Source: Herbaspirillum seropedicae
GTDB taxonomy: Bacteria > Pseudomonadota > Gammaproteobacteria > Burkholderiales > Burkholderiaceae_D
DNA: 64,000 bases
NCBI RefSeq assembly: GCF_001040945.1
Contig: NZ_CP011930.1
Span: forward strand, 3,963,021-4,027,020
Direction: 5' to 3'
Position numbers and translations under genes: made by a program. This document shows positions 4,794 through 29,454 of this stretch, one piece after another. Within the stretch, counting starts at the first letter, position 1. Each line of letters opens with the position of its first letter. Under the pieces are notes generated by a model that was not told the origin of the DNA, searched no databases, and saw only the letters and a list, made by a program, of their open reading frames with translations.

Positions 4794-4800
4794 GCGCGTC

Positions 4801-12153: not shown

Positions 12154-12676
12154 CGTACGGGGATTCCTTTCTGGTTGAGGTGGCGGCGGATGGAGCGGGT
12201 CCAACGGCAACCGTGTCTTGATCGCGGCGCAGCCCGGTTGCAGTGCTCACTGCGGCCATGCCTGCGCCATTTTGCAGCGCCCTTGCACCACGACAGGCTT
12301 TGCTGCGGCCAGGAAGGCTGGCGCAGAGGTGGCGCGGTGCTCGATGTCAGGGATGTCTGGTGCTGCTGGCGGGCCGGCGAACGGCCGGCGCTGGGTGCTG
12401 ATCTGTGTCCGCTCTTGGTGCGTAGGGTCGCGGCGGCAAAGGCGCAAGGGACGGCCCTCGCCACGGGATTCCCCGAAAATAACACAAGAGGCAACCCGCC
12501 CGCAATGCAAACGACACGGCCAACCGGCCCTGTCGCGTAGAAAGTTAGTAAACCTCGGGCATTTCCCTCAGCGCCTCGGTCAAGGGACTAACAAAGCAGC
12601 AATGGCGCCGCCAGGCATGAAACCTGCTAAATGGAAAGTCTCGCGCAGCGGGAGATCATCCGGGCGGCCGGCCGGC
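12154..12676. other. Intergenic region, 523 bp, no supported gene
   Basis: The space between the antiporter start and the Lrp stop is GC-rich. Open frames exist but none has a good ribosome site or recognisable product. I see no tRNA, clear terminator or repeat. Confidence 0.6.
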
Positions 12677-13189
12677 TCACCCCGGCACGCGCACCAGCAC
12701 TTCGGCAGCCTTTTCGTCGAAGGCGATGCGGGTCGTGAACTTGGCGCGCTTCATCGGGAAGCGCGACTGGAAATGGCGCACATTGCCCGACCCGGAAATG
12801 ACCCGCCGCACGAACTGGTAGTAGGCGTCCATGTCGATGACGTGCACCGCCAGGAAGTAGTCGTATTCGCCCGAGACGAAGTAGCACTGCATGACCTCGG
12901 CCTCCTTGGCCATGCGCTGCTCGAAGTCCTGCATGTGCTGGTCGGACTGGTTGTTCAGCGAGATTTCCAGGAAGGCCAGCATGCCATAGCCCAGCGCGAA
13001 GGGGTCCACCATGGCCACCTCGGCGCTGATGATCCCGGCCTCGCGCAGGTCGCGGATGCGGCGCAGGCAGGTGGGTTGCGAAATATGCAGTTTCTCGGCC
13101 AGCACGCGGGTGGAAATCTGGTTGTCCTTCTGCAGCATGTTGAGCAGTTTGCGGTCCACCTTGTCGAGCGTGTGATGTTTGGCAGCCAT
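12677..13189 (-). CDS. Lrp/AsnC-family transcriptional regulator
   Basis: The 170-residue protein has an N-terminal winged helix (residues about 8-65, with VDRKLLNMLQKDNQIS and recognition helix SQPTCLRRIRDLREAG) and a C-terminal RAM/ligand domain (about 75-160, with YFVSGEYDYFLAVHVIDMDAY). It is divergent from a branched-chain amino acid binding protein, with 206 bp between the starts, so it probably controls that gene in response to an amino acid. It is an Lrp-family paralogue and not provably the global Lrp. Confidence 0.92.
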   Translation of the reverse strand: MAAKHHTLDKVDRKLLNMLQKDNQISTRVLAEKLHISQPTCLRRIRDLREAGIISAEVAMVDPFALGYGMLAFLEISLNNQSDQHMQDFEQRMAKEAEVMQCYFVSGEYDYFLAVHVIDMDAYYQFVRRVISGSGNVRHFQSRFPMKRAKFTTRIAFDEKAAEVLVRVPG

Positions 13190-13395
13190 GGGGGCAAAAG
13201 TCAGGAGGGTTTTATTTGGGCAAGCCGCTTAAAAAAAACTTGGCGAAGCCGATTCTTATGTTGTACCGTCTGCATTATTCAGAAAGTCGGGGACGAAAGC
13301 AAAGCGGGACGCCCAGCCCCCGCAACAGGGATCTGAATAAAGCTTGAGTAGTGAGACAAATTAAAAGTGGTCAATTCAATCTACAGAGGAATTCT

Positions 13396-14538
13396 ATGAA
13401 ACTCAAGAGCGCCATTATTCCATTAACCGCTGCAATCGGCCTGGCCTTCGCAGGCGCCGCGTATTCCCAGGAAGTCGTCAAGATCGCCCACGTCGGCCCG
13501 CTGTCCGGCCCCAACGCCCACATGGGCAAGGACAACGAGAACGGCGCGCGCATGGCCGTGGACGAACTCAACGCCAAGGGATTCACCATCGGCGGCAAGA
13601 AGGTCAAGTTCGAGCTGGTTGGCGAAGATGACGCATCCGATCCGAAGCAGGCCACTGCCGTCGCCACCAAGCTGGTCGACCAGAAGGTCGCCGCCGTGAT
13701 CGGCCACCTGAACTCGGGCACCACCATCCCGGCCTCCAAGATCTACAGCGACGCCGGCATCCCGCAGGTCTCGCCGTCGGCGACCAACCCCAAGTACACC
13801 CAGCAAGGCTTCAAGACCGCCTTCCGCGTGGTGGCCAACGACGCGCAGCTGGGCGCAGCCCTGGGCAAGTATGCCGTGCAGAAGCTGGGCACCAAGCAGA
13901 TCGCCGTGATCGACGACCGCACCGCCTATGGTCAGGGCGTGGCTGACGAATTCGCCAAGGGCGCCAAGGCGGCCGGCGGCACCATCGTCGGCACCCAGTA
14001 CACCAACGACAAGGCCACCGACTTCAACGCTATCCTGACCTCGCTCAAGGGCAAGAAGCCCGACGTGGTCTTCTTCGGCGGCATGGACGCCGTGGGCGGC
14101 CCGATGCTGCGCCAGATGAAGCAGCTGGGCATCAGCGCCAAGTTCATGGGTGGTGACGGCATCTGTACCGGTTCCCTGCCGGGCCTGGCCGGTGACGGCC
14201 TGGGCGACGACCAGGTGATCTGCGCCGAAGCCGGTGGTGTGGACGAGGCTGGCAAGAAGGGCATGGACGACTTCCGCGCTGCCTACAAGAAGAAGTTCGG
14301 CATCGACGTGGTCTACAACGCCGCCTACGCCTATGACGCCACCATGACCGTGGCCGACGCCATGGCCAAGGCCGGCTCCGCCGATCCCAAGAAGTACCTG
14401 CCCGAACTGGCCAAGATCAGCCACAAGGGCGTGACCGGCGTCATCGCCTTCGACGCCAAGGGCGACATCAAGGATGGTTCGCTGACCCTGTACACCTACA
14501 AGGGCGGCCAACGCACCCTGCTGGCCGTGACCAAGTAA
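13396..14538 (+). CDS. Branched-chain amino acid ABC transporter substrate-binding protein
   Basis: A 380-residue periplasmic binding protein of the LivJ/LivK type. A signal peptide (MKLKSAIIPLTAAIGLAFAGAAYS) precedes EVVKIAHVGPLSGPNAHMGKDNENG, the family's ligand-binding start; DDRTAYGQGVADEFAKG is the second typical block. The start at 13396 has AGAGGA upstream; the frame extends further up but without homology. No permease or ATPase gene is adjacent, so it works with a transporter encoded elsewhere. Divergent from the Lrp-type regulator, and followed by a strong terminator. Confidence 0.93.
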   Translation: MKLKSAIIPLTAAIGLAFAGAAYSQEVVKIAHVGPLSGPNAHMGKDNENGARMAVDELNAKGFTIGGKKVKFELVGEDDASDPKQATAVATKLVDQKVAAVIGHLNSGTTIPASKIYSDAGIPQVSPSATNPKYTQQGFKTAFRVVANDAQLGAALGKYAVQKLGTKQIAVIDDRTAYGQGVADEFAKGAKAAGGTIVGTQYTNDKATDFNAILTSLKGKKPDVVFFGGMDAVGGPMLRQMKQLGISAKFMGGDGICTGSLPGLAGDGLGDDQVICAEAGGVDEAGKKGMDDFRAAYKKKFGIDVVYNAAYAYDATMTVADAMAKAGSADPKKYLPELAKISHKGVTGVIAFDAKGDIKDGSLTLYTYKGGQRTLLAVTK

Positions 14539-14590
14539 TCGGTTGCGACAGCAGGCCGGCCCCTGGGCCGGCTCAGGCGACATGCCAAGC

Positions 14591-14626
14591 AAATGCCCCC
14601 GGTGCAAGCCGGGGGCATTTTTGTTG
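14591..14626 (+). terminator. Rho-independent terminator after the binding-protein gene
   Basis: AAATGCCCCCGG and CCGGGGGCATTT pair over 12 bp around TGCAAG, followed by a T-rich tail. Confidence 0.92.
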
Positions 14627-14627
14627 A

Positions 14628-14665
14628 TACGATTTATACGATTTATACGGATACGCGCTTATACG
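14628..14665. repeat. Short degenerate repeats GATTTATACG
   Basis: Directly after the terminator, ACGATTTATACG is repeated and followed by two more diverged TATACGG units. It is a short low-complexity patch between a terminator and the stop of the next gene; no function is evident. Confidence 0.4.
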
Positions 14666-14678
14666 GTTCCGGGCGTCC

Positions 14679-15005
14679 TCAGGCGCGCAGCGCCTTTTCC
14701 AGTTCCGCCTTGTTCATGCTCGAGCGGCCCTTGATCTTGCGGGAAGCCGCTTCAGCATAGAGCTGCTGATAGGTACGACCACCCGGGCCGCTATGCGAGC
14801 GCAAACCGCCGCGGCGAGCGGAAGACATATCCTCGGTCGAAGTCTTGCTGGCCGTTTTGGATTCGCCATGGCGGGCGCGTTCCTTGTTGACGGTGCGCGC
14901 CGCGATCTCCTCGGCGCGCTTGGTCCCGGCCCCGTGCTTGAGGGCGCCGGACTTGATGTGTTCGTACTGGCGTTCGCGTTTATTACTCCATGCAGCCTGG
15001 GGCAT
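14679..15005 (-). CDS. Small basic protein, Rho-N-like C-terminus ('plasmid stabilization' family)
   Basis: The 108-residue protein is strongly charged and predicted soluble: RERQYEHIKSGALKHG, EEIAARTVNKERARHGES, GGLRSHSGPGGRTYQQLY and a C-terminal helix pair SSMNKAELEKAL that resembles the Rho N-terminal (SAP-like) fold. It belongs to a conserved family often labelled plasmid stabilization protein, although it is chromosomal and has no toxin partner here. GAGGAGG stands five bases before the ATG, an excellent ribosome site. Nucleic-acid binding is an inference from composition. Confidence 0.75.
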   Translation of the reverse strand: MPQAAWSNKRERQYEHIKSGALKHGAGTKRAEEIAARTVNKERARHGESKTASKTSTEDMSSARRGGLRSHSGPGGRTYQQLYAEAASRKIKGRSSMNKAELEKALRA

Positions 15006-15276
15006 GATGACCTCCTCATGAAGATGAAGACGATGAAGACGGCGGATGTCGCTCGCCCATGCCTACATCCTAGTCACGGCCGCCCTGCCCTGCCATCCTC
15101 CGGGCGCTGATATGCCTGTAGGAGAGGCAGCGACGCCGGTTACGGCCCGATGCTCAGCGGATGCCCGGCGAGGCAGATTTCCCGCCAGGCAATATCGCGA
15201 CAATGATAAAGCTGTACAACCTTTCGCCACCGGGCCAGTCCAAACGCTTCAACCACAGGGAATGCGGGAGGACTTA

Positions 15277-15783
15277 GTGAAAAAGATCATGGCCATGTTT
15301 GGCCTCGTGCATGGGGTGATTGCGGTGCTGTTTGCAGCGGGCGCGCTTGCCCTGATCGCGATTGCCGCGCGCATGGGATTTGAAGCGGTGATGGAAGGAT
15401 GGGGCCTGCCGCAGGCCCAGGCGCTGATCGAGGCCATCGGGATCCTGGCCGCGGCAGTGGTGGCCTTTCAGATTGCCGAGACCATCACCGAGGAAGAGGT
15501 CGTCCGCGACGCCAACATCAGCGCCCCGACGCGGGTAAGGCGTTTCCTGTCGCGTTTTTTCGTGGTGGTGGTGGTCGCGCTGGCCATCGAGGCGCTGGTA
15601 ATGACCTTCCGCGCCGTGCATGAAGAGCCCGAAGAGCTGGTCTATGCCGCCGCCCTGCTGGCCGGCACCGGCGCGCTGCTGGCCGCGTGGGGCTATTTCA
15701 TTTATTGCAACCGCGTGGCCGAGGAACTGGAGCCGGACGCCATGGAAGAGGCCAAGGAAGAGGACAAGAAGCTGGATAACTGA
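15277..15783 (+). CDS. Inner-membrane protein of unknown function
   Basis: A 168-residue protein with four hydrophobic segments (about residues 4-26, 45-60, 88-110, 125-145 of the product) and an acidic C-terminal tail (EELEPDAMEEAKEEDKKLDN) likely in the cytosol. I chose GTG 15277 because GGGAGGA lies just upstream; an in-frame ATG at 15262 would put that ribosome site inside the gene. No enzymatic motif seen. Next to the tRNA-Thr gene on the same strand. Confidence 0.7.
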   Translation: MKKIMAMFGLVHGVIAVLFAAGALALIAIAARMGFEAVMEGWGLPQAQALIEAIGILAAAVVAFQIAETITEEEVVRDANISAPTRVRRFLSRFFVVVVVALAIEALVMTFRAVHEEPEELVYAAALLAGTGALLAAWGYFIYCNRVAEELEPDAMEEAKEEDKKLDN

Positions 15784-15894
15784 GCCGGGCTTTTCCTCGC
15801 CGTATCGTCCCGCAGCAGGTGTCCAGGGCTGTACCTTGGGGAAGGACGGCGGGGAATTTTTCTGCAGGGAGTGGAAGAAGGAAAAAGAAACGGC

Positions 15895-15900
15895 TATAAT
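15895..15900 (+). promoter_or_regulatory. -10 box of the tRNA-Thr promoter
   Basis: TATAAT lies 11 bases before the mature tRNA 5' end; the -35 candidate (TGGAAG at about 15872) is weak. Confidence 0.6.
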
Positions 15901-15911
15901 CGCGGACTTTT

Positions 15912-15987
<76 letters not shown>

Positions 15988-15994
15988 GAATAGA

Positions 15995-16027
15995 AGCGGC
16001 TTGCAGTGATGCAGGCCGCTTTTTTTT
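15995..16027 (+). terminator. Terminator after tRNA-Thr
   Basis: AGCGGC-T-TGCA and TGCA-G-GCCGCT form an interrupted stem over GTGA, followed by eight T. Confidence 0.85.
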
Positions 16028-16057
16028 GCTCCGCAATTCTGGCTTTGCTCCGCAATT
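16025..16057. repeat. 14-bp direct repeat TTTGCTCCGCAATT
   Basis: Two copies 19 bp apart start inside the tRNA terminator tail and lie between the tRNA and the broken end of umuC, close to the point where umuC homology stops. It may be a scar of the rearrangement. Confidence 0.5.
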
Positions 16058-16141
16058 TTTTCACATACGAGCATGGACCCGGAAATGGCCCGCTTCTTTA
16101 CGCACCGGCTCCGGATGCAAAAGCGCCCGAGCTCGGCTTGT

Positions 16142-16630
16142 TCACTTCGTGGGTATGACCTTCTTCGTAGCCCAGATGCCCACACAGACCGGCACACCGA
16201 CCCAGGTCAGCACCTGATGGCGGATGGCCTGGCCCATGTCGCTCATGCTCGGCCATAGGCCGGCCAGGCCGTCCAGGGCGAGGAAACTCTCATCGATGGA
16301 ATACACCTCCAGGCGCGGGCTATATTGGCGCAGCACCTCGGTGACGCGGTTGCTCATGTCGGCGTAGAGGGTGTAGTTCGAAGAGAGCGCCACGATGCCG
16401 TGCTGGCGCGCCAGCTCCTGCATCATGAACCAGGGCGCGGCCATCTTGATGCCCAGTGCCTTGGCCTCATTGGAGCGCGCCACCGTGCACCCGTCATTAT
16501 TGGACAGCACCACCACGGGCCGGGCCCTGAGCTTGGGGTCGAAAACACGCTCGCACGAAACGTAGAAATTATTGACGTCAACCAGGGCGAAGCCTGCCCG
16601 CCTGGCCTGACTTGGCCGCTGGCTGCTCAC
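16142..16630 (-). pseudogene. umuC: umuC, truncated (DNA polymerase V catalytic subunit fragment)
   Basis: Only 162 residues remain of an approximately 420-residue Y-family polymerase. The N-terminal palm is recognisable ([37 protein letters not shown], and the catalytic SIDESFLAL). Homology ends after VPVCVGI-ATK, where about ten unrelated residues lead to a stop. Thumb and little-finger domains are missing, so polymerase activity is not expected. It overlaps the end of umuD by 4 bp (ATGA), as in an intact umuDC operon. The break lies 160 bp from the tRNA-Thr 3' end, consistent with loss at the island edge. Confidence 0.88.
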
Positions 16631-17094
16631 AGCATCTTCCTGGCTACGCCCACCACCACGCCGAAGACTTCCAGCACCTCGCCGTCGCCGAAGCGGATCG
16701 GACGGAAATCAGGGTTCTCCGGATGTAGCTCATAGGCGCCGTTGACCAGGCGCAGGCGCTTGATGGTGAACTCCCCGTTGACGATGGCCACCACGATATG
16801 GCCCGGCTGGGGCGAGACTGAGCGATCCACCACCACCTTGTCGCCCTCGACGATGTGCGCGCCGCTCATACTCCAGCCGGCCACATCGAAAAGGAAGGTG
16901 CAGGCAACGCGATCTACCAAGTATTGATTCAGGTCCAGCGGATCAGCGGTGTAATCGGCTGCCGGGCTTGGGAAGCCGGCATGGAGCTTGTGCGTGATGT
17001 GCAGGGCCAACGGCCCGCCGACGAACTGGATCGCTGGTACGGGCTGTATCATGCTTCCTGGCGGTGCTGGCGCGGGATAGGTGAGGCTTGACAT
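16627..17094 (-). CDS. umuD: UmuD-type SOS mutagenesis protein (LexA-like S24 peptidase)
   Basis: A 155-residue S24 protein. After RecA stimulation UmuD cleaves itself and joins UmuC as polymerase V. Visible: the Ala-Gly cleavage site in [12 protein letters not shown], catalytic Ser in [22 protein letters not shown] and catalytic Lys in FTIKRLR. I chose ATG 17094 because an in-frame ATG at 17136 lies inside the SOS box. There is no strong ribosome site. It remains intact while its partner umuC is truncated, so any present role would need another UmuC. Confidence 0.9.
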
Positions 17095-17126
17095 ATTGAT
17101 AACGGGAAACGGCGAGCGATCAACGG

Positions 17127-17146
17127 AACTGTACATACGTACAGTA
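17127..17146 (-). promoter_or_regulatory. LexA (SOS) box upstream of umuD
   Basis: AACTGTACATACGTACAGTA contains perfect CTGT-N8-ACAG symmetry and lies 33 bp upstream of the chosen umuD start. TATACT on the minus strand overlaps its edge and can be the -10, so bound LexA would block the promoter. Confidence 0.9.
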
Positions 17147-17370
17147 TAAATCACTTTTTCGGCCCCGCGCGCGGTTGCCCCCACCCCCGCGCCTGCTCGC
17201 TACATCGGTCGGTTTTGACGCAAATTTGCGTCAAGCGTCCAAGCCCGTCCGGCCTTGCTCGACGTTCCGTCCAGCAGTCACAAAATTTGACGCATTTTGA
17301 TGCATCCGCGAGCCACTTTTGAGTGCGAGATGGACAGTAGACACGCATGAGGGGGAAATTTGTGAGTTGA

Positions 17371-17398
17371 AAAAAAGCCCGCTAAAAAGCAGGCTTTT
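17371..17398 (-). terminator. Terminator downstream of the 60-residue basic protein gene
   Basis: Read on the minus strand, AAAGCCTGC and GCGGGCTTT pair around TTTTTA and run into a T tract. It lies 22 bp after the stop at 17420. Confidence 0.8.
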
Positions 17399-17419
17399 GG
17401 GGGAGGGCGAATTAGAGCG

Positions 17420-17602
17420 TCATTTCTTTACGGTCTTGGCCGCCGCTTTACGCGGAGAGCTCTTTTTATTCGGGGAATGCTGCGAAGAAGCAACTTTTTT
17501 CTTGGACTGGTTCCCGAATGCCGCGAGAACACGCTCAACAGCGGCCCTATCCTCGGGCACGCTGCGACGCCCTTGATAATCCCAACGTAGAACTGCACTC
17601 AT
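17420..17602 (-). CDS. Small Lys-rich basic protein, unknown
   Basis: Sixty residues: an N-terminal part RWDYQGRRSVPEDRAAVERVLAAFG followed by a Lys/Ser/Ala tail ending AAAKTVKK, like a nucleic-acid-binding tail. GAGGAG stands a few bases before the ATG, and a terminator follows the stop. It starts 59 bp after the nitrilase-like gene on the same strand, so it could share that transcript or use its own GATAAT -10 at about 17640. No family recognised. Confidence 0.6.
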   Translation of the reverse strand: MSAVLRWDYQGRRSVPEDRAAVERVLAAFGNQSKKKVASSQHSPNKKSSPRKAAAKTVKK

Positions 17603-17661
17603 AGCTGACTCCTCAAAAAAACCGACAACAAAGTATTATCGGTTGCATTCGCTTCAGAGAA

Positions 17662-19356
17662 TTATAACCAATCCGGTGGGTTATTTAGCGCCAGTGGCGT
17701 TTGAGAAACAAATTTCAACATTTGTGTCACAGTACCGTCAGCCCGGGTATCAAGAGTATGTTGTTCTGTAGCCTCTGCTCTCAATTTCAACAACAATCCG
17801 TGCTCAGAAGTTGAAATCAGAAGCTGCCTTGGCATGGGGGCTCCCGCCTCGCCCCACAAGCCAATTGACCGTAACGGATTGTGCTCTCGCTGGTTAGAGC
17901 GATCTACCATACCAGCACAAGTAATTGACAATACCGACGAGCCGGGATCCTCTGCCAGAACCGTTGCATATCTCCCTGGCCAACGCAAAGGTAGCTGAGG
18001 CCCATCCATCAGCAGCGCCAAAATGAGATTTGGACCGACAGCCCGTATCACTGGCATAGCCGGATCACTACGGGCCAAATCCTCACATACAAGTACTGTC
18101 AAAGAAAGATCTTTGCCAATCGAATAAAACGGTAAGTGTCGTTCAGAAATATCAATATCTTCCCACCACTTACTGGATTTGGACGAACGGGCAAATGACA
18201 ATCCATAACGATCAACCTGACTTTTATCCAATCGCCAGCGGTGATGTTTAGACTGAATACTCGTTAGCCCTCCTGCTCCACCAGGCAAAAAGGAAAAGGT
18301 TCTCGCGCTGTTTCTAGCTCTTCCTTTAATATTCTTGAGCGTCCCCGTAATCAAGAGCGGCAAATTTTCTTTTGTCAACGCGGACGCAACCTCGTACGCC
18401 AGCTCATCTGAAAGTGCGCACTCAGGCATCACAACGGCATCGATATCCCCGTCTCCCACGATACGCGCTTTTTCGAGCAACGGTTTTATTAGATGTTCAA
18501 CTAACATCTTCCCACTGATCCTCTTTCGATCCTTTGTCAGTAGCCACATCTGCTTTAGCTTAAAAAATGCAGCCGTGTGCAAACCTTTGGTCAGCTCTAC
18601 AGGATCCACCGATAATCGAAAAGATTTATCGGGAACAGTAAACGGAAATGGGATGATCAGCAATCTCAAGCCATTTTGAGCAACATTATAAGGTTGAGCC
18701 ATAAACCACGAAGGCTTAACTTGAGACCTCGCAGGCAGCAGGGCAAGATGGTGACTGAGAGACCGCACCGTACACCCTACTGAAGCCGTAATTGATTTTG
18801 GCAAGACCACCGCCATTTCTGGAGGAACAAACGCACATACCGAATAAGGCGTATGAGGCAACTTCGACACTTTGCTATCTGAATCCGGCGTCAGACTCAG
18901 CATCGCATAATCGGCAAAAACTGACGGAGGCGACTTAGGTTTGCTGCGATCAGGCTCCCATCCAATCCCCACCGATGCCTCGTCGGCGACAGCAAACATA
19001 GTCAAGAGAATCCGTACCAATTCTTCGTGCGCGACAACACCATCTATTGCGTAGGTGCCGTACTTTTTTAATAGCTTTTCCCATAACGCCTGCAAGCGGC
19101 GTGGGACGTCAACATCTCTTTTCCACTCATTGGATATTTCTTTGACACGTCTCAAAAATTTCTTGTGCTCTGTGGAATCATCAAGACTGGGACCCGCAAA
19201 TGTATAACATCCCGACTGCTCGACGATGGTGCCAATCACCGCAAACAAATCTGGCGGCCAGAATGGACATGGCTCCCATATTGCATCACCATTGATAAAC
19301 GCATCCCGATTGGTGCCGTCTTTCATCAGGGTTTTAATAACTTCAAAAATAGTCAA
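17662..19356 (-). CDS. Carbon-nitrogen hydrolase (nitrilase-fold) protein of the IetAS-like operon
   Basis: 564 residues. The C-terminal half (about 225-515) has the three nitrilase superfamily catalytic sites in order: Glu in AVVMPECALS (about E312), Lys in QSKHHRW (about K370) and Cys in LTVLVCEDLARS (about C424). The N-terminal 220 residues match nothing I recognise. The gene follows the subtilase gene on the same strand after a 203-bp gap. Nitrilase domains occur in other anti-phage proteins, such as the reverse transcriptase-nitrilase DRT1 proteins, so an effector or nucleotide/amide-hydrolysing role is possible. Substrate and true partnership are inferences. Confidence 0.7.
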   Translation of the reverse strand: MTIFEVIKTLMKDGTNRDAFINGDAIWEPCPFWPPDLFAVIGTIVEQSGCYTFAGPSLDDSTEHKKFLRRVKEISNEWKRDVDVPRRLQALWEKLLKKYGTYAIDGVVAHEELVRILLTMFAVADEASVGIGWEPDRSKPKSPPSVFADYAMLSLTPDSDSKVSKLPHTPYSVCAFVPPEMAVVLPKSITASVGCTVRSLSHHLALLPARSQVKPSWFMAQPYNVAQNGLRLLIIPFPFTVPDKSFRLSVDPVELTKGLHTAAFFKLKQMWLLTKDRKRISGKMLVEHLIKPLLEKARIVGDGDIDAVVMPECALSDELAYEVASALTKENLPLLITGTLKNIKGRARNSARTFSFLPGGAGGLTSIQSKHHRWRLDKSQVDRYGLSFARSSKSSKWWEDIDISERHLPFYSIGKDLSLTVLVCEDLARSDPAMPVIRAVGPNLILALLMDGPQLPLRWPGRYATVLAEDPGSSVLSITCAGMVDRSNQREHNPLRSIGLWGEAGAPMPRQLLISTSEHGLLLKLRAEATEQHTLDTRADGTVTQMLKFVSQTPLALNNPPDWL

Positions 19357-19559
19357 TTTCTCTCCCCGTATATTTTTACTATTTCTGCTTCATCTACGAG
19401 TGTAAATAATCTACTTTCAAATGGGTGTTCGACTTAATGAAATGTAGGTGCAGAAAAACTAATTTTAGTATGCCTGTTGAATTGCGTTTACAGATTATCC
19501 ACTTCTCCCGTTGCGAGCCAAATACAAAGGCCAACTTGACAGGGCCTTTGTATAAAACT

Positions 19560-21890
19560 CTAGGGATTTCTGACGGTAATCGGAGTGCGAGCGGGTAGTG
19601 GCTCCCTAATCCAGTTGGTCGCGGCGAGAGCTCTCTGACCCTCTTCATAAATATTCGGGTTGTTATCTAAAGCACGCAAAGTGACGATAATAATTACCCG
19701 TACCGGCTTAGCGAGACGTGGCTCTAATGCTCTTTTGAGTAATGTCGCCTGAAGAGCCCAGTTTGTTCCGGACTTGCCGTTGGGAAAACTTCTGCGATAG
19801 ATCTTGATCGGAGACCACTTTCCGCCATACTCGACTTGCGCCTGTTCATGGCCGGTAGTTCCAAGCTCACCTTTAGCAGGAACTTGACCCTTAAACTGAA
19901 TTTTTCCCGTGGCGTCCGGCTCCAGTAAGCCGAATCCAACATCAACGTTAACCCGTACATATTCCGCGCCCGCGTTGGGATCGAGAACGGGTGCGTAAGC
20001 AGCCGTGATAATCACTTCGCAATTTAATTTGCCTGCCTTGAATAGCGAGGGGGGAATAGGGAAGGGACTCTTTCGCCATTTTGTAGATTCGGTTATGTCC
20101 AACTCGAACATCATCGTGAAGCTCGAGTTTGAGTCATAGAGTACGCTCAGCGGATCTAGAGGAGTCCCAGACCCAAAATACCGCTTCTCTGTCGCAGACC
20201 TTTCTGGAGAATTTATTTCAGCGCTATGCACCAGGAGCGCCTTGACGATATTAGGTGTGACAGTAAATCTATGTTTCCGAGCGCCTCCCTCCAATTGTCT
20301 CCATGTATGTGCTGCTAGCGCAGATATGATAGGAGTGGCAAAACTGGTACCACACAAAGTAGCAATAGCGCCGCCGGGAGAAAGAACATTTAGGCCAACA
20401 CCTGTGGCGTCTAAATTATGGTCGGCATTTCCTCCTAAATGGGCGAGATCCGGCTTCGGAGTGAAAAGGGGGCCAGGACCCCGGCGCGAATAGGGCGCAG
20501 GCTCGCCAATTTTGACAAGACTTGATGCATTCTCCAAATGCGCAACAGCACCTACAGTTATGGCGCGTACTGAGTCACCGGGACTCGAAAGCCTATCGGA
20601 CAACGTGTTGTTTGTGACGGGCCAACTACGACGCGGTAGATCAACATAGTTGCCCGCTGCCACAACAAAGAGAACGCCATGCGCATCGCTCAACGCATCT
20701 AATTCGCGCCCGAATTCGGTAAATTCCTCGTCTGAGACTTCATTCGCTCCTAGCGACAAATTCCAAATTTTCACGTCGGACGCTTTGGCGACAGCCTCCC
20801 TCAAGCGGATAATCAGGTCACCAATGCGCGAACCAGGAACCTCTAGTGCGCATACATCGTGCACACGGCAAGGTGAAGATGGGATTAGCGTATGATTCAA
20901 ATTCAATCCAGCGCTATCAACTAACAATGAGCCAACTGCCGTGCCGTGCACATAGTCGGTATCCGGCGGGAGGATATAGGTGTCACGCTTCACAATCCAC
21001 GGATTCAAGATAGCTGTAAGAGGATCAACGCCCGTATCAAAGACCGCAACAACAGGTAAATCAGCGCTTGGTTGTAGAGCCGTGAAAGTAACATGCTGAC
21101 GAGTGCCGCGAGTGGACGCGTGAGGCCAAACCAATGGCTCGGGCTCAATTCGCCGAATTGCTGGGAACGATGCAAGTAACAGGAAACGTTCTTGGGTGAA
21201 CTTTTTGTTTGTCTCGACGAAGAAAATGGGAATGCCAGCACTATGCGAAAACTCTTCGTACTGGATATGATTTTCCCGTAGTAATGCCCTGAATTTATTT
21301 AAAACGTGGGTACGCTGCTCTACGGAGCTATAGCGGAAAAGTCGGATTTTCAAGCGCCGCTCTGACAAGATCACGGCTTGCCATAACTCCTTCTTCGACA
21401 TCTCCCTCCATTGCAGAGGGAACCTCCGCTTGAGCCCCCAGGGCTCGAAGCGCTCCACTGCGCTTATGTTGGCTCGCACCGCTTTGACGTTGCGTGTAGC
21501 GACTACCCGATCAAGCTTACTTAGGTTGACTTGGGTGGCCGTTACTAACATCTCGTCCATAGCACCGTGGCCTACAGGGGTCATTTCCGCTTCGGCGGCT
21601 ATGGTAAGAGGGCGATGTGATTTAGCAACTGCAATATCTCTTAGACGAAAAATCAATATGCCAGGTATGTCAGGATGGAGGCTGCTCTCTCTTTCAATCT
21701 CCAATGCTGCTTTTTCAATCGTGCGGCGCAAAAATCGCCTAAGCTCAGGTGTAACAGGGACGAGCTCCTTTGCTCCACCCCCACCATTTACTTCTACCGC
21801 TGACAGATCAGACGGTTGATACCCAATGTGTGCAATTGGATTGTCCCGAAGAGACTTTTCCCTAACTATGCCCTCTCTTTTCTTCGCCAT
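19560..21890 (-). CDS. Subtilisin-like serine protease (S8), IetS-like
   Basis: 776 residues, no signal peptide, so cytosolic. The S8 catalytic residues are all present: Asp in VVAVFDTGVD (D285), His in YVHGTAVGS (H315), oxyanion Asn in VVAAGN (N414) and Ser in LCGTSFATP (S516). About 275 residues precede the protease domain and may bind the ATPase or a target; about 230 follow it. It overlaps the ATPase gene by 29 bp, implying coupled translation. The AAA ATPase plus cytosolic subtilase pair matches IetAS, described as a plasmid toxin-antitoxin/stability module and also catalogued among anti-phage systems. Confidence 0.82.
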   Translation of the reverse strand: MAKKREGIVREKSLRDNPIAHIGYQPSDLSAVEVNGGGGAKELVPVTPELRRFLRRTIEKAALEIERESSLHPDIPGILIFRLRDIAVAKSHRPLTIAAEAEMTPVGHGAMDEMLVTATQVNLSKLDRVVATRNVKAVRANISAVERFEPWGLKRRFPLQWREMSKKELWQAVILSERRLKIRLFRYSSVEQRTHVLNKFRALLRENHIQYEEFSHSAGIPIFFVETNKKFTQERFLLLASFPAIRRIEPEPLVWPHASTRGTRQHVTFTALQPSADLPVVAVFDTGVDPLTAILNPWIVKRDTYILPPDTDYVHGTAVGSLLVDSAGLNLNHTLIPSSPCRVHDVCALEVPGSRIGDLIIRLREAVAKASDVKIWNLSLGANEVSDEEFTEFGRELDALSDAHGVLFVVAAGNYVDLPRRSWPVTNNTLSDRLSSPGDSVRAITVGAVAHLENASSLVKIGEPAPYSRRGPGPLFTPKPDLAHLGGNADHNLDATGVGLNVLSPGGAIATLCGTSFATPIISALAAHTWRQLEGGARKHRFTVTPNIVKALLVHSAEINSPERSATEKRYFGSGTPLDPLSVLYDSNSSFTMMFELDITESTKWRKSPFPIPPSLFKAGKLNCEVIITAAYAPVLDPNAGAEYVRVNVDVGFGLLEPDATGKIQFKGQVPAKGELGTTGHEQAQVEYGGKWSPIKIYRRSFPNGKSGTNWALQATLLKRALEPRLAKPVRVIIIVTLRALDNNPNIYEEGQRALAATNWIREPLPARTPITVRNP

Positions 21891-23031
21891 CCTCTTCCTT
21901 TGTTAGTTGTGAAACTTTTCTTATCGAAATTGAATACAGACGCGATAATTCCCTTAATGAAAATATCTTTCGTTCCCACTTCCTTAGCCAACAAATCTCG
22001 TCTTCCAATGAAGGTAGAGCGACCCGCTGTACTAATGCCAGAGATAACCCTAGACGCTTGAACAATTCGGCTGGATCAATAGCGGTCGCGCCAGCGAAGA
22101 TTGCTGTGCGCTTACTATCAAGCACGATCTGTTCTATGAGTGCCCCTGATATCCCCTCAGACTTCTCGGCAAGCAAATCAAAGTCTAGAGCACTGGAAGA
22201 AAACTTCCCTAACATTTCCTTCCAGAGCTCTTTTCTTAATTGAAAATCTGGTAGCGGAAGTGGCACCCTAAAAGGAAATCTTCGCCATATCGCGCTGTCC
22301 AGAAGTTGATCATGATTTGAAGCCGCAACCACTATCGTATTCTCGGACAAGGCGTCGAGGTTCTGAAGTAGAGATATAACGACTCGCTGGAGTTCTCCAA
22401 CGTCTCTCTCATTGCCACGCGCGCTACCTAACGCATCAAACTCATCCAGGAACAATACACACGGCCTTTGTTCAACGTATTCAAAAACCTGTCGCAAATT
22501 TTTACTTGTTTGGCCTAACAAGCTGCTTATTAGCGTGTCGCAACGTACTGTTAGTAACGGAAGTTTTAGTTCACCCGCAATCCAACGCGCAGTCTGAGTT
22601 TTCCCCGTGCCTGGTGCTCCGTAAATCAATAGTCTAAGAGGTGACGCTGCCTCAGACGCTTGGAGCGCATCGTAATATCGAACCGTGTTAAGAAATTCTC
22701 TGATTCTAGAATCTACACCACTTGGAAGATACAGTTTCACTGCATCAACCATAGGATGACTTACATCAACCGTATGCATTCGACTTTCGGTGTCGATCGG
22801 TAGGCCAGTAGAAATTCTTCCAGCGTCTTGCGCATGAGCTATACCTGTCGGTGCTCTTGCCAGCCTTTCGCGAACCCGCAAAGCCTGTTCCCGATTCCCT
22901 TCTTGCTCTAATTTGTCCGCTAGAAGGCCTGCATAATTGGCGGCCATGCTCGAGTTTGCCCGCAAGGCCCCATCAATAATCTTCAAGATTTCTGAGAGGT
23001 GCGGAAATACTTGAGTGTCTGTTTTTGACAT
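21862..23031 (-). CDS. AAA-family ATPase, IetA-like
   Basis: 389 residues with an N-terminal helical region (about 1-85, TPR-like AGLLADKLEQEGNREQALRV) and one AAA+ domain: Walker A YGAPGTGKT (about 137-145), Walker B CVLFLDEFD (about 191-199), sensor AASNHD (about 237-242) and Arg-finger region IWRRFPFRV. Start ATG 23031 has GGAG nine bases upstream; an in-frame ATG at 23055 is less likely. First gene of the ATPase-protease-nitrilase operon. A near-consensus LexA box lies 100 bp upstream. In IetAS the ATPase is taken as the partner that restrains or directs the protease. Confidence 0.85.
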   Translation of the reverse strand: MSKTDTQVFPHLSEILKIIDGALRANSSMAANYAGLLADKLEQEGNREQALRVRERLARAPTGIAHAQDAGRISTGLPIDTESRMHTVDVSHPMVDAVKLYLPSGVDSRIREFLNTVRYYDALQASEAASPLRLLIYGAPGTGKTQTARWIAGELKLPLLTVRCDTLISSLLGQTSKNLRQVFEYVEQRPCVLFLDEFDALGSARGNERDVGELQRVVISLLQNLDALSENTIVVAASNHDQLLDSAIWRRFPFRVPLPLPDFQLRKELWKEMLGKFSSSALDFDLLAEKSEGISGALIEQIVLDSKRTAIFAGATAIDPAELFKRLGLSLALVQRVALPSLEDEICWLRKWERKIFSLRELSRLYSISIRKVSQLTKEEDGEEKRGHS

Positions 23032-23130
23032 AATTAACTCCAAATTAGTGCACATCGTAACGGATTAAGAGCATTTCGTCTCGGTTTTCGATGGTTTTGT
23101 TTCGCGACTCGATGTCGCGCGACGTTATTT

Positions 23131-23150
23131 TACTGTATAAAAACACAGTA
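23131..23150 (-). promoter_or_regulatory. Near-consensus LexA (SOS) box upstream of the ATPase-protease-nitrilase operon
   Basis: TACTGTATAAAAACACAGTA has TACTGT and ACAGTA half sites separated by 8 bp. The E. coli consensus has the same half sites with an alternating AT core. It lies 100 bp upstream of the ATPase start at 23031 and no other gene is close. Same CTGT-N8-ACAG pattern as the box before umuD in this window. Confidence 0.8.
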
Positions 23151-23627
23151 ACATATCTGCGTCCAATGTTTGGCGTAAGAAACAGATGATTTCCCTTTTT
23201 GTAGCGGGAATTGGTTTCTTTTTTGAAATAATTCTCAAAAGAAATTTTGCACTTGCGCGCTATCCGACATAGGCGCGTTAGGTGGGAAGGGCATAGGAAG
23301 CTTGTTCCTGCTGTGCTGGCAACGGAGAATTGCTAATTGAGCATCAGGGGCGATACCATATACAAAATTGCGTTCGCGTTTTTCACCGAACGGTAGAGAT
23401 TACTATCGCATTTCGCAACGGAAGTTCTTTTCCACAACTCCAGATCGAGCGGGACTATAACCGGCTTTGTGAGCCGCTGACTTTTTTGAATTTGTGGAGC
23501 AAGAATCCACATAAACTATTGATCTAATGAAATTACTTCTAGATTTTCCGTCCCTTGGGCAGGCGCGCTATGTTAGCTTCACTCGCTGTTTCTAAACAAC
23601 AAATTCCGCCCGTGATTTGAATATACA

Positions 23628-23654
23628 AACGCCCGCACAATGCGGGCGTTTTTT
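23628..23654 (+). terminator. Hairpin terminator at the start of the small-gene array
   Basis: AACGCCCGCA and TGCGGGCGTT pair perfectly over 10 bp around CAA and end in a T run on the plus strand. The same hairpin plus, about 15 bp on, the dispersed repeat occurs at 29,378-29,441 and in decayed form at 38,228-38,277. Confidence 0.8.
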
Positions 23655-23754
23655 CTTGCAAGTTCGATGTCCGCTGCTGGCCGATTGCGGACATTGATTC
23701 TCTATAGCCGCCCAGCTCCATGTCCGTCGAACATAGTGCAAATGTGAAATTGCC

Positions 23755-24426
23755 TTATTGACGTCGTTGGATGAACTCAAGCAATTCCTGGAAAAAGTCC
23801 ACCTTCAGTTCCGAACCATATAGATCTGATGCTTGCATAAACCTATAGTAATCAGACAGGCACCGCTCCGCCAACTCGAACCTTGATTTTGTAGACGACA
23901 CCAAATAAGCGATCTGGCAAAAGCGAGCAAAATGACTTGAATCATATCTCCATTCAAATGGAGGAATATTCGACAAGTAAATATCGAGCAACTGTTCCTC
24001 AGACCGCACCGACAACAACACCTGTTCCATAAACAATTTGAACGGGCCTGAGAATATATCCGGCAAATCTGGTTCCTTTGTACTCAGATTCAGGCGGTAG
24101 TTTATAGAGTCCCATATCAGCGGCCAAGTGAACCAACAAGCCGGTCTCTCTTTATTCATCTGATCAATTGCCAATCGTATTTCAAAAGGTAAATACGGCA
24201 TCTGATGCGCAAAAAAAGAGCGGACGGATGAAGCGTTAAAACCAAAATCGAATTCATATCTTTGAGTCCGTGAAAGATAACGGACTGCTAAAAGTGACTC
24301 AACGTCGGTACCACGAGAGCCATTGCAAACGAAGTAACTTATGTCACTCGAATTGACCTTCTGCTCAGGAAGAAACGAAAACCCCAGGCCCTCAAGTTGC
24401 TCGATCACTATGCGATGTTTTTTCAT
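23755..24426 (-). CDS. Hypothetical protein, possible immunity protein
   Basis: 223 residues, soluble, no signal peptide or membrane segment. Rich in Phe, Tyr and Ser with many short helices (for example CFTWPLIWDSINYRLN-like centre and SRFELAERCLSDYYRFM near the end). I recognise no family. It is the first unit of the minus-strand small-gene array, with one hairpin repeat 60 bp after its stop and another 46 bp before its start. AT-rich codon use differs from core genes nearby. Confidence 0.65.
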   Translation of the reverse strand: MKKHRIVIEQLEGLGFSFLPEQKVNSSDISYFVCNGSRGTDVESLLAVRYLSRTQRYEFDFGFNASSVRSFFAHQMPYLPFEIRLAIDQMNKERPACWFTWPLIWDSINYRLNLSTKEPDLPDIFSGPFKLFMEQVLLSVRSEEQLLDIYLSNIPPFEWRYDSSHFARFCQIAYLVSSTKSRFELAERCLSDYYRFMQASDLYGSELKVDFFQELLEFIQRRQ

Positions 24427-24499
24427 TCGACGTTAAAGTCAAAAACTGTAATTTTTGAAGTGATGTTGAAAGTCGGCCTCTGGCCGATAACAGACATCT

Positions 24500-24823
24500 T
24501 TAGCGATTCACAAGGAGAACGATTGCCGAAAAGATCATGCCCCAAAACACCAAAACGCCTGCCAACCCCATCAGCATGAGAATTTGGCTCAGATAACGTA
24601 GGTCTGACCGGGATTGGCGGAATTTATCATTTATTATTGCAAGGAATAGGATGGCGAACCCCGAACAAATCGTGAAGAAGATGGTGCCGCTGATACCGTC
24701 CGAAACAGCCCGGTTCCCCGCTTTCAACCACCAGGAATAGGACCGATCCATGAAGCTCATTACAGTTAGCCATTGAATCGCTATAAAGACGGTCGCAAGG
24801 ACCAGTCCAATTTTTGTCTTCAT
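24500..24823 (-). CDS. Small membrane protein, unknown
   Basis: 107 residues with three hydrophobic segments (about residues 5-24, 45-65, 80-104). The first could be a signal anchor. A hairpin repeat ends two bases after its stop. No family recognised. In this array setting it may be an immunity protein against a membrane-active toxin, which is an inference only. Confidence 0.6.
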   Translation of the reverse strand: MKTKIGLVLATVFIAIQWLTVMSFMDRSYSWWLKAGNRAVSDGISGTIFFTICSGFAILFLAIINDKFRQSRSDLRYLSQILMLMGLAGVLVFWGMIFSAIVLLVNR

Positions 24824-25007
24824 TGAAAATGAGGAAGTTTAATTACAGGCCTTTTACCAATAGGACTACGCCAAGGACCATTCCTGGCTGATTGCGGACT
24901 GTACAAGTGCGATTCGTTGAGAGGTTCCTGAGACGTCTGCTTCTGGCCGTTAGTGGACCTTTTTTGACGAACTGTTGCGAACATAAGATGAAGTTCGCAG
25001 CAGCTAA

Positions 25008-25256
25008 TTAACAAATCTCTTTCTCAATCCAACGGACGTCGCTCGGCGCCAGGGTTTTCCAGTCACTATCATCTACACCGAACTGCGAAGCGGCCTCTAC
25101 ACGTGCTTCGGCTAACGATGTGTAAAGGTGATCACCTTCGCTACCACCTGGTTCCGGATATTGTGTCCGATAACGAATCAGCAGCCAGACATAATCTCCA
25201 CATTCGTCCGCAAGCGGCGCGAGTACGAGAGAACCTATTTCAAGGTTGTGCGGCAT
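25008..25256 (-). CDS. Hypothetical small protein
   Basis: About 82 residues from ATG 25256: MPHNLEIGSLVLAPLADE, then GDYVWLLIRYRTQYPEPGG, ending DVRWIEKEIC. The frame is open further up to a TTG at 25343 (111 residues); neither start has a clear ribosome site. Acidic, soluble, immunity-like in size and composition, but I recognise no named family. Hairpin repeat copies lie 48 bp after its stop and about 33 bp above the longer start. Confidence 0.55.
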   Translation of the reverse strand: MPHNLEIGSLVLAPLADECGDYVWLLIRYRTQYPEPGGSEGDHLYTSLAEARVEAASQFGVDDSDWKTLAPSDVRWIEKEIC

Positions 25257-25398
25257 TGGGCGAAGATTATCAGCAACTTGCCATTGTGGGAGAGATTCAA
25301 ATTGGCTCACGGTCAAGTCGCTTCGATCAGTAAATGATCCCAAAATGATTGAATCGTCGATCCATGTTTGGAATGGAGTGCTCCTGGCCGATTGTCAA

Positions 25399-25635
25399 TC
25401 ACGCCGGTTTCGGCAACGGACTACCATCCTCAAAAACACCTAGTTCAGTACGTGCCATGAGAACCAGTTTCTCAATCAGCGAAAATGGTAGCTCGTCGAT
25501 AAACAAAGAGACTGTCAGCGAATGATCAGCATCGCATCTGAAGACTTCGGCAAGGACTTTTCCAATGGGATCTACTAGCTCCACGCCTAGGCCATCACGG
25601 ATAACGTCCGACGCAATCTGAAACCGATATTCCAT
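25399..25635 (-). CDS. Conserved hypothetical small protein
   Basis: 78 residues: MEYRFQIASDVIRDGLGVEL, then AEVFRCDADHSLTVSLF, ending TELGVFEDGSPLP. I have seen similar short proteins in small-gene clusters of Proteobacteria but know no function. A hairpin repeat touches its stop codon and another lies 24 bp upstream of the start. Confidence 0.65.
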   Translation of the reverse strand: MEYRFQIASDVIRDGLGVELVDPIGKVLAEVFRCDADHSLTVSLFIDELPFSLIEKLVLMARTELGVFEDGSPLPKPA

Positions 25636-25807
25636 ACTGCCCTTTCTAAAGATTCGGAACGTCCGCTAATGGCCGATAGAAGACGTCATATTCCATGTCT
25701 TTAGCAAGTCTGTTCGCACTGGGAGCCTATGCCGCCGAACGTTGCGAGAGAACAAAAAACATTTCCTCTTCATTCTCGTCAAATGCCGCATCATGTCGGA
25801 ATCCGAC

Positions 25808-26158
25808 TTACCAGTCGTACGCTTCACCCTCATCGCCTACGATGACGGCCCCTAGAGCAAAAGCGAGCTTAGCCGCTGCGACATGCGTTAGGTCTCTGGA
25901 AGACTGAATGTTCTCCGTAGCTTTGAATGAAACTTGGCCATGCATGAAATGGAAGCAAGGCACCCATTGCCCCATCTCTAAAAGTATTTCTGCGGTGCCG
26001 GCATGACTATCAATGGAGATTACTTCACCGCTTGAAGGATTCACGGCGGACGTGTTTTTACTGGCAAGCCTGACTCCGTCCAACTGGCTCACCGCGGCAT
26101 TCCACTCGTCAATGGTCAGAGGATGATGCTTCCGCTCGATGTGAAGTTCGTAAGCCAT
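25808..26158 (-). CDS. Immunity-like hypothetical protein
   Basis: 116 residues starting MAYELHIERKHHPLTIDEWN, a beginning typical of small proteins encoded beside contact-dependent or type VI toxins. The rest is beta-rich with Trp and His (GQWVPCFHFMHGQVSFKA) and ends in an Asp/Glu/Trp tail. No toxin gene is adjacent. Flanked by hairpin repeats like its neighbours. Assignment to a specific Imm family cannot be made by eye. Confidence 0.65.
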   Translation of the reverse strand: MAYELHIERKHHPLTIDEWNAAVSQLDGVRLASKNTSAVNPSSGEVISIDSHAGTAEILLEMGQWVPCFHFMHGQVSFKATENIQSSRDLTHVAAAKLAFALGAVIVGDEGEAYDW

Positions 26159-26337
26159 TTTTCTTTAGTTAATTTGTTAGCCATTGGATTGCCGAGGGCC
26201 TTTTCCCATGTAGTCCGATTCTGGCCGTTTACGGACGTCCATCGGAAACGAACTGACTCAGCAAGCTCCGTGAATTTTCGCTGCCAATGACGCCAAATTC
26301 TCTAATGCATGAGATTGATAAGATCTGCCGCTTCAGC

Positions 26338-26571
26338 TTAAGACAGAATCCCCCCGCCAATCACCATGCCGAGAATTCCTAAGATATAAGCCAACAGGAA
26401 TTTCCCATAGAAGCCGTGCCTTTTAGCAATCAAGAAGGCATATCCTGGAATCACAAAACACAACACGCCTTTTGAAGCACTTACCGTAAACGTCTTAAGC
26501 GTCACATATACCTGTGCGGCCACCATTACCGCCAGCCCCACAAGCAACACTCCCGTTCCTACTGTACTCAT
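26338..26571 (-). CDS. Small membrane protein, unknown
   Basis: 77 residues with two or three hydrophobic stretches (about 5-22, 36-50, 56-76) and a basic turn IAKRHGFYGK between them. GGGG close to the start is a weak ribosome site. A hairpin repeat lies 98 bp after the stop. Unknown function. Confidence 0.6.
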   Translation of the reverse strand: MSTVGTGVLLVGLAVMVAAQVYVTLKTFTVSASKGVLCFVIPGYAFLIAKRHGFYGKFLLAYILGILGMVIGGGILS

Positions 26572-26823
26572 TACCCCACCCTTTTTATCAATTTAGGAAT
26601 CAACCATGTGAGTTTAATTGATTAAATTCCTGTGAGGCAATAATTTGGCGCGACTGTGCACTCAAATGCCAGATCTTTAAGGCCTGCAGTCTTTGAACTT
26701 ATGATCACTTCCCGGAGAGGGGCGGATTTGGCATGGATCTTCGGAATGGAAGATAGCCAGACCGTACTTTCGAACGAAGGCGGTTATGCTTTGATCAACG
26801 TCCGTTTCTGGCCGGAAGCGGCC

Positions 26824-27311
26824 TTATTGAAATGTCGTTTTGACAAGTGCTGCCCAGTCTGACTTTGCCTCTTCACCGGACAAGAATATCTTTATCGTTG
26901 GAGCCCAAAATTCCCCCTCCCTTACGGCACACTCCAAGGTCGAATCTTGGAACGTGAAGACATAGTGAACTAGGTCTGCCATAAATCTGCTGCTGCCATA
27001 AATCTGCTGCTGTCATGATTTGGATGCACAGCGTTCCGTCGATCAAGTTCAGCAAGCCAGGAAGAATTCTCGATCCGATGAACGCTGTAGCGCTTTAGAC
27101 CGAACTGGGCAAGTGGATGCCCACCTAGTGCCTCATCGTTTGGAGATCCAAAGCGGAATGAATTGACCAATGGAAATTGAATCAGGGCGATTTCATCTCT
27201 TTGGGTGAAGTATCGCAAACACAATTTTGTCTCGGTCGCTAATAAAGTGACTTCAGAGGAACTACTTGGTATGGGCCAAGAATCAAGCAAAATGACAATC
27301 GGCGATGGCAT
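26824..27311 (-). pseudogene. Conserved hypothetical gene broken by a 17-bp tandem duplication
   Basis: Translation from ATG 27311 runs MPSPIVILLDSWPIPSS through NDEALGGHPLAQFGLKRYSV to HPNHDSSRFMAAADLWQT and stops at 26970. The stop is caused by a 17-bp tandem duplication at 26980-27013. Removing one copy restores a continuous frame (MADLVHYVFTFQDSTLECAV, then GEFWAPTIKIFLSGEEA) to a stop at 26824, giving 156 residues. The restored C-terminus matches how I recall this small-protein family. A hairpin repeat ends at the restored stop, the usual array position, which supports the restored length. Confidence 0.8.
26980..27013 (-). repeat. 17-bp tandem duplication (2 copies)
   Basis: CATAAATCTGCTGCTGC is followed at once by CATAAATCTGCTGCTGT. 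The 17-bp length shifts the reading frame by two bases in the minus-strand gene. Each copy also contains a CTG triplet run, which favours slippage. Confidence 0.9.
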
Positions 27312-27399
27312 GGTTTCCTATTCTATTAAGACGTGAGCGGCTGCTTATGGCCGATGGAAGACGTCAGTTCATTGAGCCGTCATTATCCTTCCGCGAAAA

Positions 27400-27819
27400 C
27401 TACGGCATCCTAATCGGGAACATACCTAAGATATTTCTCAGTAAGAAATGGTTGATTCCAGGATCTGTCCAAAATCGTGTTTTTGCAAGTCCAACTTCGA
27501 TATATTCCGCTCGCTTCTTCAACTCCTGCGGATGTAAATTACCGTCGTTCGCGGTTGATACTTCGCCTAAATTATCGAGCTCGACTGATGCAAATACGCC
27601 ATCAATTCTACCGAGCAAAAACCTGGCAGTAAGCACCGTCCAGACATCGTCATTGAGCCAAAAGATAAGCAATGGCTGTTCGTACCCCTCTGTTGCATCG
27701 AGTATCTTCCTCGCCGCCACTTCGTTCGAAATTAAAAAACCATTCCACAAACAAGATTCAAGGCGATTTTTTCTCGCACGCCACAATATCCGATTTTCAT
27801 ACCATTCCAATTTCTTCAT
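27400..27819 (-). CDS. Hypothetical protein, possible immunity protein
   Basis: 139 residues, soluble, with several aromatic residues (MKKLEWYENRILWRARKN, PLLIFWLNDDVWTVLTARFLLG). No family recognised. The gene lies between two copies of the hairpin repeat (27331-27365 after the stop, 27855-27881 before the start). Confidence 0.62.
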   Translation of the reverse strand: MKKLEWYENRILWRARKNRLESCLWNGFLISNEVAARKILDATEGYEQPLLIFWLNDDVWTVLTARFLLGRIDGVFASVELDNLGEVSTANDGNLHPQELKKRAEYIEVGLAKTRFWTDPGINHFLLRNILGMFPIRMP

Positions 27820-27919
27820 TTCAGAGAAATTACTAAATTTTTGATCATAGGATTGACCACTTCTGGCCGATTGCGGTCTTCACGAATAGCCGTCTTAACT
27901 GATCACTGATCCTAGCTTC

Positions 27920-28303
27920 TTAAATTCTCGGCATATTCCAAAGAGCAGGTAAATCAGAGAAGTGCCCCCATTCAGACCACGATGCGCTAGCTTGATCTAC
28001 GGGTCTTGAGGCTAACCTCCATTCAGGAGGGTCTGGAAAACCATGCCAAGTATTTTGGATCAGGATCAGATCCTCGCTATCAAAAGTGGCATAGAAAGCA
28101 ATCTCATTCGATACAAACCAATCACGGCTTTGTCCAAAAATACCTTTCTGCGGGAAGTTATCGAACGGAGTAGCCAACCAAGAGATCTTCTTCATTGCAC
28201 GCTCGTGGAAGCCTAATTCTTGTGCATCCGCGGTCGCTCCTTCTATATCCAATGGGATCGGCTCCCATTCAGGCGATACGTCGTCTCGGCGGTAAATGCT
28301 CAT
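27920..28303 (-). CDS. Hypothetical protein, possible immunity protein
   Basis: 127 residues, acidic and Trp-rich (EWEPIPLDIEGATADAQ, RDWFVSNEIAFYATFDSEDL, TWHGFPDPPEWRLASRP). Composition and length resemble SMI1-type or Imm proteins, but no diagnostic motif is visible. Hairpin repeats lie 39 bp after the stop and 24 bp upstream of the start. Confidence 0.62.
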   Translation of the reverse strand: MSIYRRDDVSPEWEPIPLDIEGATADAQELGFHERAMKKISWLATPFDNFPQKGIFGQSRDWFVSNEIAFYATFDSEDLILIQNTWHGFPDPPEWRLASRPVDQASASWSEWGHFSDLPALWNMPRI

Positions 28304-28359
28304 AGAGTCTCAACATAGGGGGGGAAGACAGCTTCTGGCCGATTGCGGACCTCGGCAGA

Positions 28360-28737
28360 TCATAGTGAATATGCGCGCTTTCTCCAGAAGCGATAACCAC
28401 TAACAAAGAAAATTACTCCAGAACCAAATGCCAACCAGATAGATTTACCGATGATTGGAGAGTCTGCTGGCAGATCTAACATCCTTGCACCAAGAAACGG
28501 CAAATACCAAGCACCGAAGAAAACACACAACCACGCGAGCATTAGACATGCAAACACTAATTTCCCGAAAAATGTGTAATCACGAGGCGGAGACGATAGC
28601 AACTGAATGAAGTCATTTTGCGTGGTTAGAGGAATGCCGGCCTCAGTATGCCGATGCGCGCATATGCCCACGCCCAAAGGGATAAACACCACGGCACCAG
28701 TCGTTGCACCAAGAAATAAAATTACAAAGTCGGTCAT
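28360..28737 (-). CDS. Small membrane protein, unknown
   Basis: 125 residues with three hydrophobic segments (about 4-24, 58-80, 97-115) and an Arg/Lys-rich C-terminus (FWRKRAYSL). One hairpin repeat ends 7 bp after its stop; a poor copy lies upstream. No family recognised. Confidence 0.62.
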   Translation of the reverse strand: MTDFVILFLGATTGAVVFIPLGVGICAHRHTEAGIPLTTQNDFIQLLSSPPRDYTFFGKLVFACLMLAWLCVFFGAWYLPFLGARMLDLPADSPIIGKSIWLAFGSGVIFFVSGYRFWRKRAYSL

Positions 28738-28787
28738 CTGTAAAAATTAATAAGTAACAATGACGGCTTCTGGGCACCACCTAACAG

Positions 28788-29144: not shown

Positions 29145-29206
29145 TTCTTAAATTTTTATCAATAATTAAAGGTAGCACCTGGCCGATTGCGGACATTGGA
29201 GACTTT

Positions 29207-29423: not shown

Positions 29424-29454
29424 TTCTGGCCGGAAGCGGACCTTAAAACATCTG

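Follow-up and report, generated by a model that had tools for sequence, protein, structure and literature searches.

A complete IetAS pair and a neighbouring nitrilase-fold gene of an unnamed family in Herbaspirillum seropedicae are probably two independent modules

The window, a 64,000-nucleotide stretch of the Herbaspirillum seropedicae chromosome contig NZ_CP011930.1, carries an IetAS-type ATPase–subtilase pair followed on the same strand by a gene for a nitrilase-fold protein (Table 1). We propose, with a probability of about 80%, that these are two independent modules that adjoin one another within an acquired island of low GC content. This reading is preferred because the pair exceeds the cut-offs of both of its family models, because IetAS is in reach of relatives of the nitrilase at only one of 80 loci and, among 399 genomes of the order, adjoins one only in the window's genome, and because the large neighbours of the nitrilase vary between loci, a small ORF recurs directly downstream of it and its presence is patchy.

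IetAS protects against phages, and its AAA+ ATPase is thought to control the cytosolic subtilase. Both proteins of the window pair passed their NCBIfam cut-offs, IetS scoring 1004.6 bits against IteS NF042956 (cut-off 900) and IetA 540.9 bits against IteA NF042959 (cut-off 510), and the names of both models carry the label anti-phage. The pair was likewise recognised by Pfam (Peptidase_S8 in IetS, 1.8e-25; AAA in IetA, 4.3e-30) and by PADLOC (1.9e-281 for IetS and 1.6e-142 for IetA). A string search located the Walker motifs of IetA at residues 146 (GAPGTGKT) and 201 (LFLDEFD). The sequence-only reading, which had identified the pair as IetAS-like, named the complete catalytic set of the subtilase and stated a 29-bp overlap, was borne out in all three respects: the four residues are where it had placed them, and the two adjacent genes overlap at exactly 21862–21890. 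The ATG at 23031, where that reading had set the end of the unit, corresponds to residue 9 of IetA. On these matches the pair is an ordinary, complete IetAS, predicted to be anti-phage. An inverted repeat lies just 3' of the IetS stop codon, in a stretch (19490–19562) that folds at -22.9 kcal/mol, a figure obtained without a shuffle control. The repeat, with its loop of 10, falls outside the list of a terminator scan whose loop limit was 8, and it is a possible end of the IetAS transcript.

Table 1. Features of the IetAS–nitrilase region, in window coordinates
Feature	Position	Strand	Details
IetA, AAA+ ATPase	21862-23055	-	397 aa; ORF list plus Pfam, PADLOC and NCBIfam matches
IetS, S8 subtilase	19560-21890	-	776 aa; D285, H315, N414, S516
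Inverted repeat just 3' of the IetS stop	19522-19553	-	two perfect 11-base arms, 10-base loop, weak T tail; read in sequence
Nitrilase-fold protein	17662-19356	-	564 aa, TTG start; E312, K370, C424
Terminator-like hairpin separating the nitrilase gene from the small ORF	17620-17644	-	scan gave 9 sites vs a shuffle mean of 8.3, so chance is possible
Candidate small gene	17420-17602	-	60 aa, ATG start, GAGGAG before the start, lysine-rich tail
Terminator-like hairpin with T run, 3' of the small ORF	17370-17398	-	read in sequence; -16.3 kcal/mol without shuffle control; absent from the scan list

The surrounding stretch (17000–33500) has a GC content of approximately 44–56%, vs 60–68% in positions 1–17000, lies downstream of a tRNA-Thr gene (15912–15987) and was likely acquired. 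Two further groups of genes were observed in the window. An S24 peptidase (UmuD-like) is encoded at 16142–17184 together with a 162-aa ORF carrying a polymerase IMS domain, which appears shorter than full UmuC. Between 24500 and 30640, ten same-strand ORFs of 107–139 aa form a run, only one of which exceeded a Pfam cut-off (DUF2750, 28788–29144); judged by eye, the run may represent an immunity-type gene array.

The protein encoded 203 bp beyond IetS comprises an N-terminal helical domain (residues ~1–222) and a nitrilase domain (~223–553). Its predicted model adopts the nitrilase fold with confidence, and the structural matches listed are nitrilase-superfamily proteins, mostly metabolic enzymes, with which it shares 10–19% identity in the rows listed. 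The Glu-Lys-Cys residues that had been proposed from the sequence occupy the positions given for them and are invariant across 78 aligned sequences. No Pfam match to CN_hydrolase was obtained at E <= 0.1 and no NCBIfam model matched the gene; of the three Pfam profiles that the sequence-only reading had put forward, AAA and S8 were thus recovered and CN_hydrolase was not. The helical domain, also confidently predicted, gave no significant match among solved structures, in agreement with the approximately 220 unrecognised residues reported earlier. Among 7997 candidates scored, 1493 proteins belonged to the family at E <= 0.001. These observations support the assignment of the gene to the nitrilase superfamily, as a member of an unnamed family with predicted C-N hydrolase activity. 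Its presence is patchy, the gene having been found in 12 of the 294 genomes of the taxonomic family, and at least three of those copies (G298, G511 and G589) are fragmentary or contain stops.

The nitrilase had been put forward as an added third gene of IetAS, a candidate that we rejected on neighbourhood data. We fetched 84 loci with nitrilase relatives (80 from genomes and four from viral contigs), in which tblastn at 1e-5 detected an IetA relative at L003 and its duplicate L002 only. Since this search missed the divergent IetS of L003, it was repeated with phmmer over the ORFs of the loci using four queries, including the L003 pair; an IetAS pair was again found only at L003/L002, with a lone weak IetA-type match at L040 (2e-6), and still more divergent pairs could escape. 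The L003 pair is IetAS according to PADLOC (IetS, 2.1e-40; IetA, 4.1e-87). IetAS is consequently within reach of the nitrilase at one of 80 loci, a count made without the locus in the window itself, without the duplicate L002 and without three loci whose nitrilase ORF was not returned by the ORF script (L032, L042 and L063, which contained no IetA or IetS by tblastn). At least 5 kb of flanking sequence was visible on both sides in 47 of these loci, on one side in 26 and on neither side in seven.

Across 399 genomes of the order, a nitrilase match occurred in four (one of them a fragment) and an IetS profile match at E <= 0.001 in 56, many of them weak and a single one, the window's own, over the cut-off; the two genes were adjacent in the window's genome only. 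Among 1889 plasmid records matching IetA, 24 covered at least 80% of it, and the neighbourhoods of two were read. In the closest, from Acidovorax sp. T1 (58% identity in IetA), a Shedu gene lies behind the pair on the opposite strand; in the next, from Dongshaea, a hypothetical gene occupies that place, also on the opposite strand; the nitrilase is absent from both. IS21 copies and an integrase were noted close to the Acidovorax IetAS–Shedu locus. The literature searched contained no paper joining IetAS and a nitrilase, and the matches listed for nitrilase with anti-phage or defense consisted of DRT work and general defence papers.

A single three-gene system, in which the nitrilase would be an accessory IetAS effector gained in this lineage, is accordingly very unlikely in our judgement. 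The same-strand gap of 203 bp is compatible with co-transcription, which may occur, and L003 offers a second, independent co-location. However, the L003 pair is encoded on the opposite strand, ~2.4 kb and several intervening ORFs away from the nitrilase, a hairpin stands 3' of IetS in the window, both plasmid loci read carry IetAS without the nitrilase, and no pair was in reach at 79 of the 80 loci, although only part of these show 5 kb on both sides. The recurrent co-occurrence in unrelated genomes that would have favoured one system was not seen; the nitrilase was found mostly apart from the pair, which the sequence-only reading had itself named as evidence against its proposal.

The neighbour that recurs beside the nitrilase, in part of its loci, is a small ORF. 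In the window, a 60-aa ORF starts 59 bp behind the nitrilase gene, between two terminator-like hairpins. A small same-strand ORF directly downstream was present at 27 of 77 nitrilase loci (window included) vs 68 of 584 control ORFs, with a p-value of 7.8e-7 that is post hoc, the cut-offs having been set after viewing the ORF list. By the same cut-offs the remaining 50 loci had no such ORF, and seed loci such as L004, L005, L010 and L013 were missed as well; ORFs in the loci were called with a greedy longest-ORF script, and some are spurious. In two pairs of related loci, differences by codon position in the small ORF amounted to [16,13,38] and [16,16,48], falling mostly in third positions, and the ORF clearly reads as a real coding gene in part of the Betaproteobacteria. 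RefSeq also annotates a small gene 12 bp behind the nitrilase on a Massilia forsythiae plasmid (locus L116).

A profile of the small protein was built from 12 seeds chosen by eye. Eleven further loci were inspected, seven of which were identical to earlier loci and one of which (L127) was broken; outside the seeds the profile matched L116 (2.9e-10), L122 (1.1e-24; a close relative, with 81% DNA identity to seed locus L008) and, weakly, L129 (0.037). In addition, the small-protein matches P0127 and P0135 are located on contigs equal in size to those of the nitrilase matches P0028 (114935) and P0089 (3346742), respectively. The profile gave E-values of only 1.8 and 3.7 for L012 and L015, two betaproteobacterial loci that nevertheless carry a small coding ORF, and this non-recognition argues against a single small-protein family. 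Small ORFs that may be related to the profile family are also present behind the nitrilase in other clades. The window ORF shows, by eye, a GR...E...V pattern, and its product belongs to protein cluster P0133, which represents 22 contigs. Its kinship to the small-partner family failed a leave-out test: with its own sequence omitted from the profile, it fell outside the best 8 of 403 small ORFs of the window; it is kept as a candidate part.

Which large genes flank the nitrilase varies among the loci, and several of the neighbours are housekeeping genes. A CBASS-type cyclase lies near it at L003, a TIR protein at L004 and a patatin at L019, and by our own reading L009 contains a BREX-like cluster, the pool holding one BrxL. 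PADLOC matched 133 families for 110 proteins near the nitrilase and 126 for 99 far proteins of the same loci, showing no enrichment by what is a crude measure, since families rather than proteins with a match were counted and the pools (110 of 132 near and 99 of 110 far proteins) had been cut by hand owing to a residue limit or partial codons. As the near and far counts are flat, the neighbour data lend no support to a defence role of the nitrilase. The absence of defence enrichment, together with the largely metabolic structural matches, speaks for an amidase- or glutaminase-like enzyme of metabolism, brought along as cargo of the island and without a role in conflict, which would be compatible with two modules. 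To this reading we give somewhat less than an even chance: clustering of the neighbours revealed no recurrent metabolic gene, the nitrilase is rare and patchy with broken copies, and it has an extra helical domain and, in many loci, a small companion gene.

Nitrilase domains had been said to be known in defence proteins such as DRT1. The DRT1 study describes the nitrilase as an effector domain, reports abortive infection and leaves the substrate open (PMC13275509). An hhalign comparison of the nitrilase family with the DRT1 of the same genome returned a probability of 92.6 (E 4.6e-7) over residues 287–447, and the PADLOC RT_UG5-nitrilase model (PDLC03780) matched the window protein at residues 293–429 with an E-value of only 0.022. 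The catalytic cysteine lies in the context CEDLAR in the window protein vs CSDL in that DRT1. Neither Pfam nor NCBIfam gave a reverse transcriptase family match in the window protein, and the RT portion of the PADLOC model gave none either. The DRT1 of this genome (L135, G000:C1:8159-11197), located outside the window, contains no internal stops, matches RT_UG5-nitrilase at 1.6e-280 and is flanked by ORFs of 312 and 377 aa; in a DRT1-like unit elsewhere (L136, G146:C1:41738-44613), the reverse transcriptase and the nitrilase are two separate ORFs.

This kinship to DRT1, the small coding gene that accompanies some members of the family and the cyclase, TIR and patatin genes near some loci would fit a nitrilase that forms its own toxin–antitoxin or anti-phage unit with the small gene, again compatible with two modules. 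The flat near/far PADLOC control argues against such a unit, as does the lack of a small ORF by our cut-offs at 50 of 77 loci, though some seed loci were missed too, and we regard it as rather doubtful. Our best guess within the two-module reading is that the nitrilase is a regulated C-N hydrolase effector. It would hydrolyse a C-N bond in an amide or a small molecule of the cell, restrained by its helical N-terminal domain and by the small protein until infection, for example, triggers its release. That the nitrilase acts in defence or in a toxin-like manner is tentative and on balance unlikely; less probable still is the specific arrangement in which nitrilase and small downstream protein constitute a self-contained conflict module, with the effector restrained by the small protein and by the helical domain, whose fold is unsolved. 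Should that arrangement be true, it would represent a second route, after DRT1, for nitrilases into immunity.

The IetAS part of the region is ordinary, and its interest lies in a large nitrilase family that bears no Pfam or NCBIfam name, has a helical domain without a significant solved match and is frequently accompanied by a small gene. Compared with the nitrilase superfamily (formamidase, Nit2 and the glutaminase domain of NAD+ synthetase), the window protein differs in lacking a Pfam CN_hydrolase match and in possessing the extra N-terminal domain. With DRT1, which is also present in the same genome, it shares a related nitrilase domain; the reverse transcriptase that DRT1 has in the same protein was not found in it, and a separate nitrilase family related to that of DRT1 would offer a simpler test case. 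Compared with IetAS (NF042959/NF042956; PADLOC PDLC02196 for IetA and PDLC02197 for IetS), the window pair has both genes over the NCBIfam cut-offs, overlapping and with catalytic and Walker residues present, and the sole difference seen is the nitrilase gene as its neighbour.
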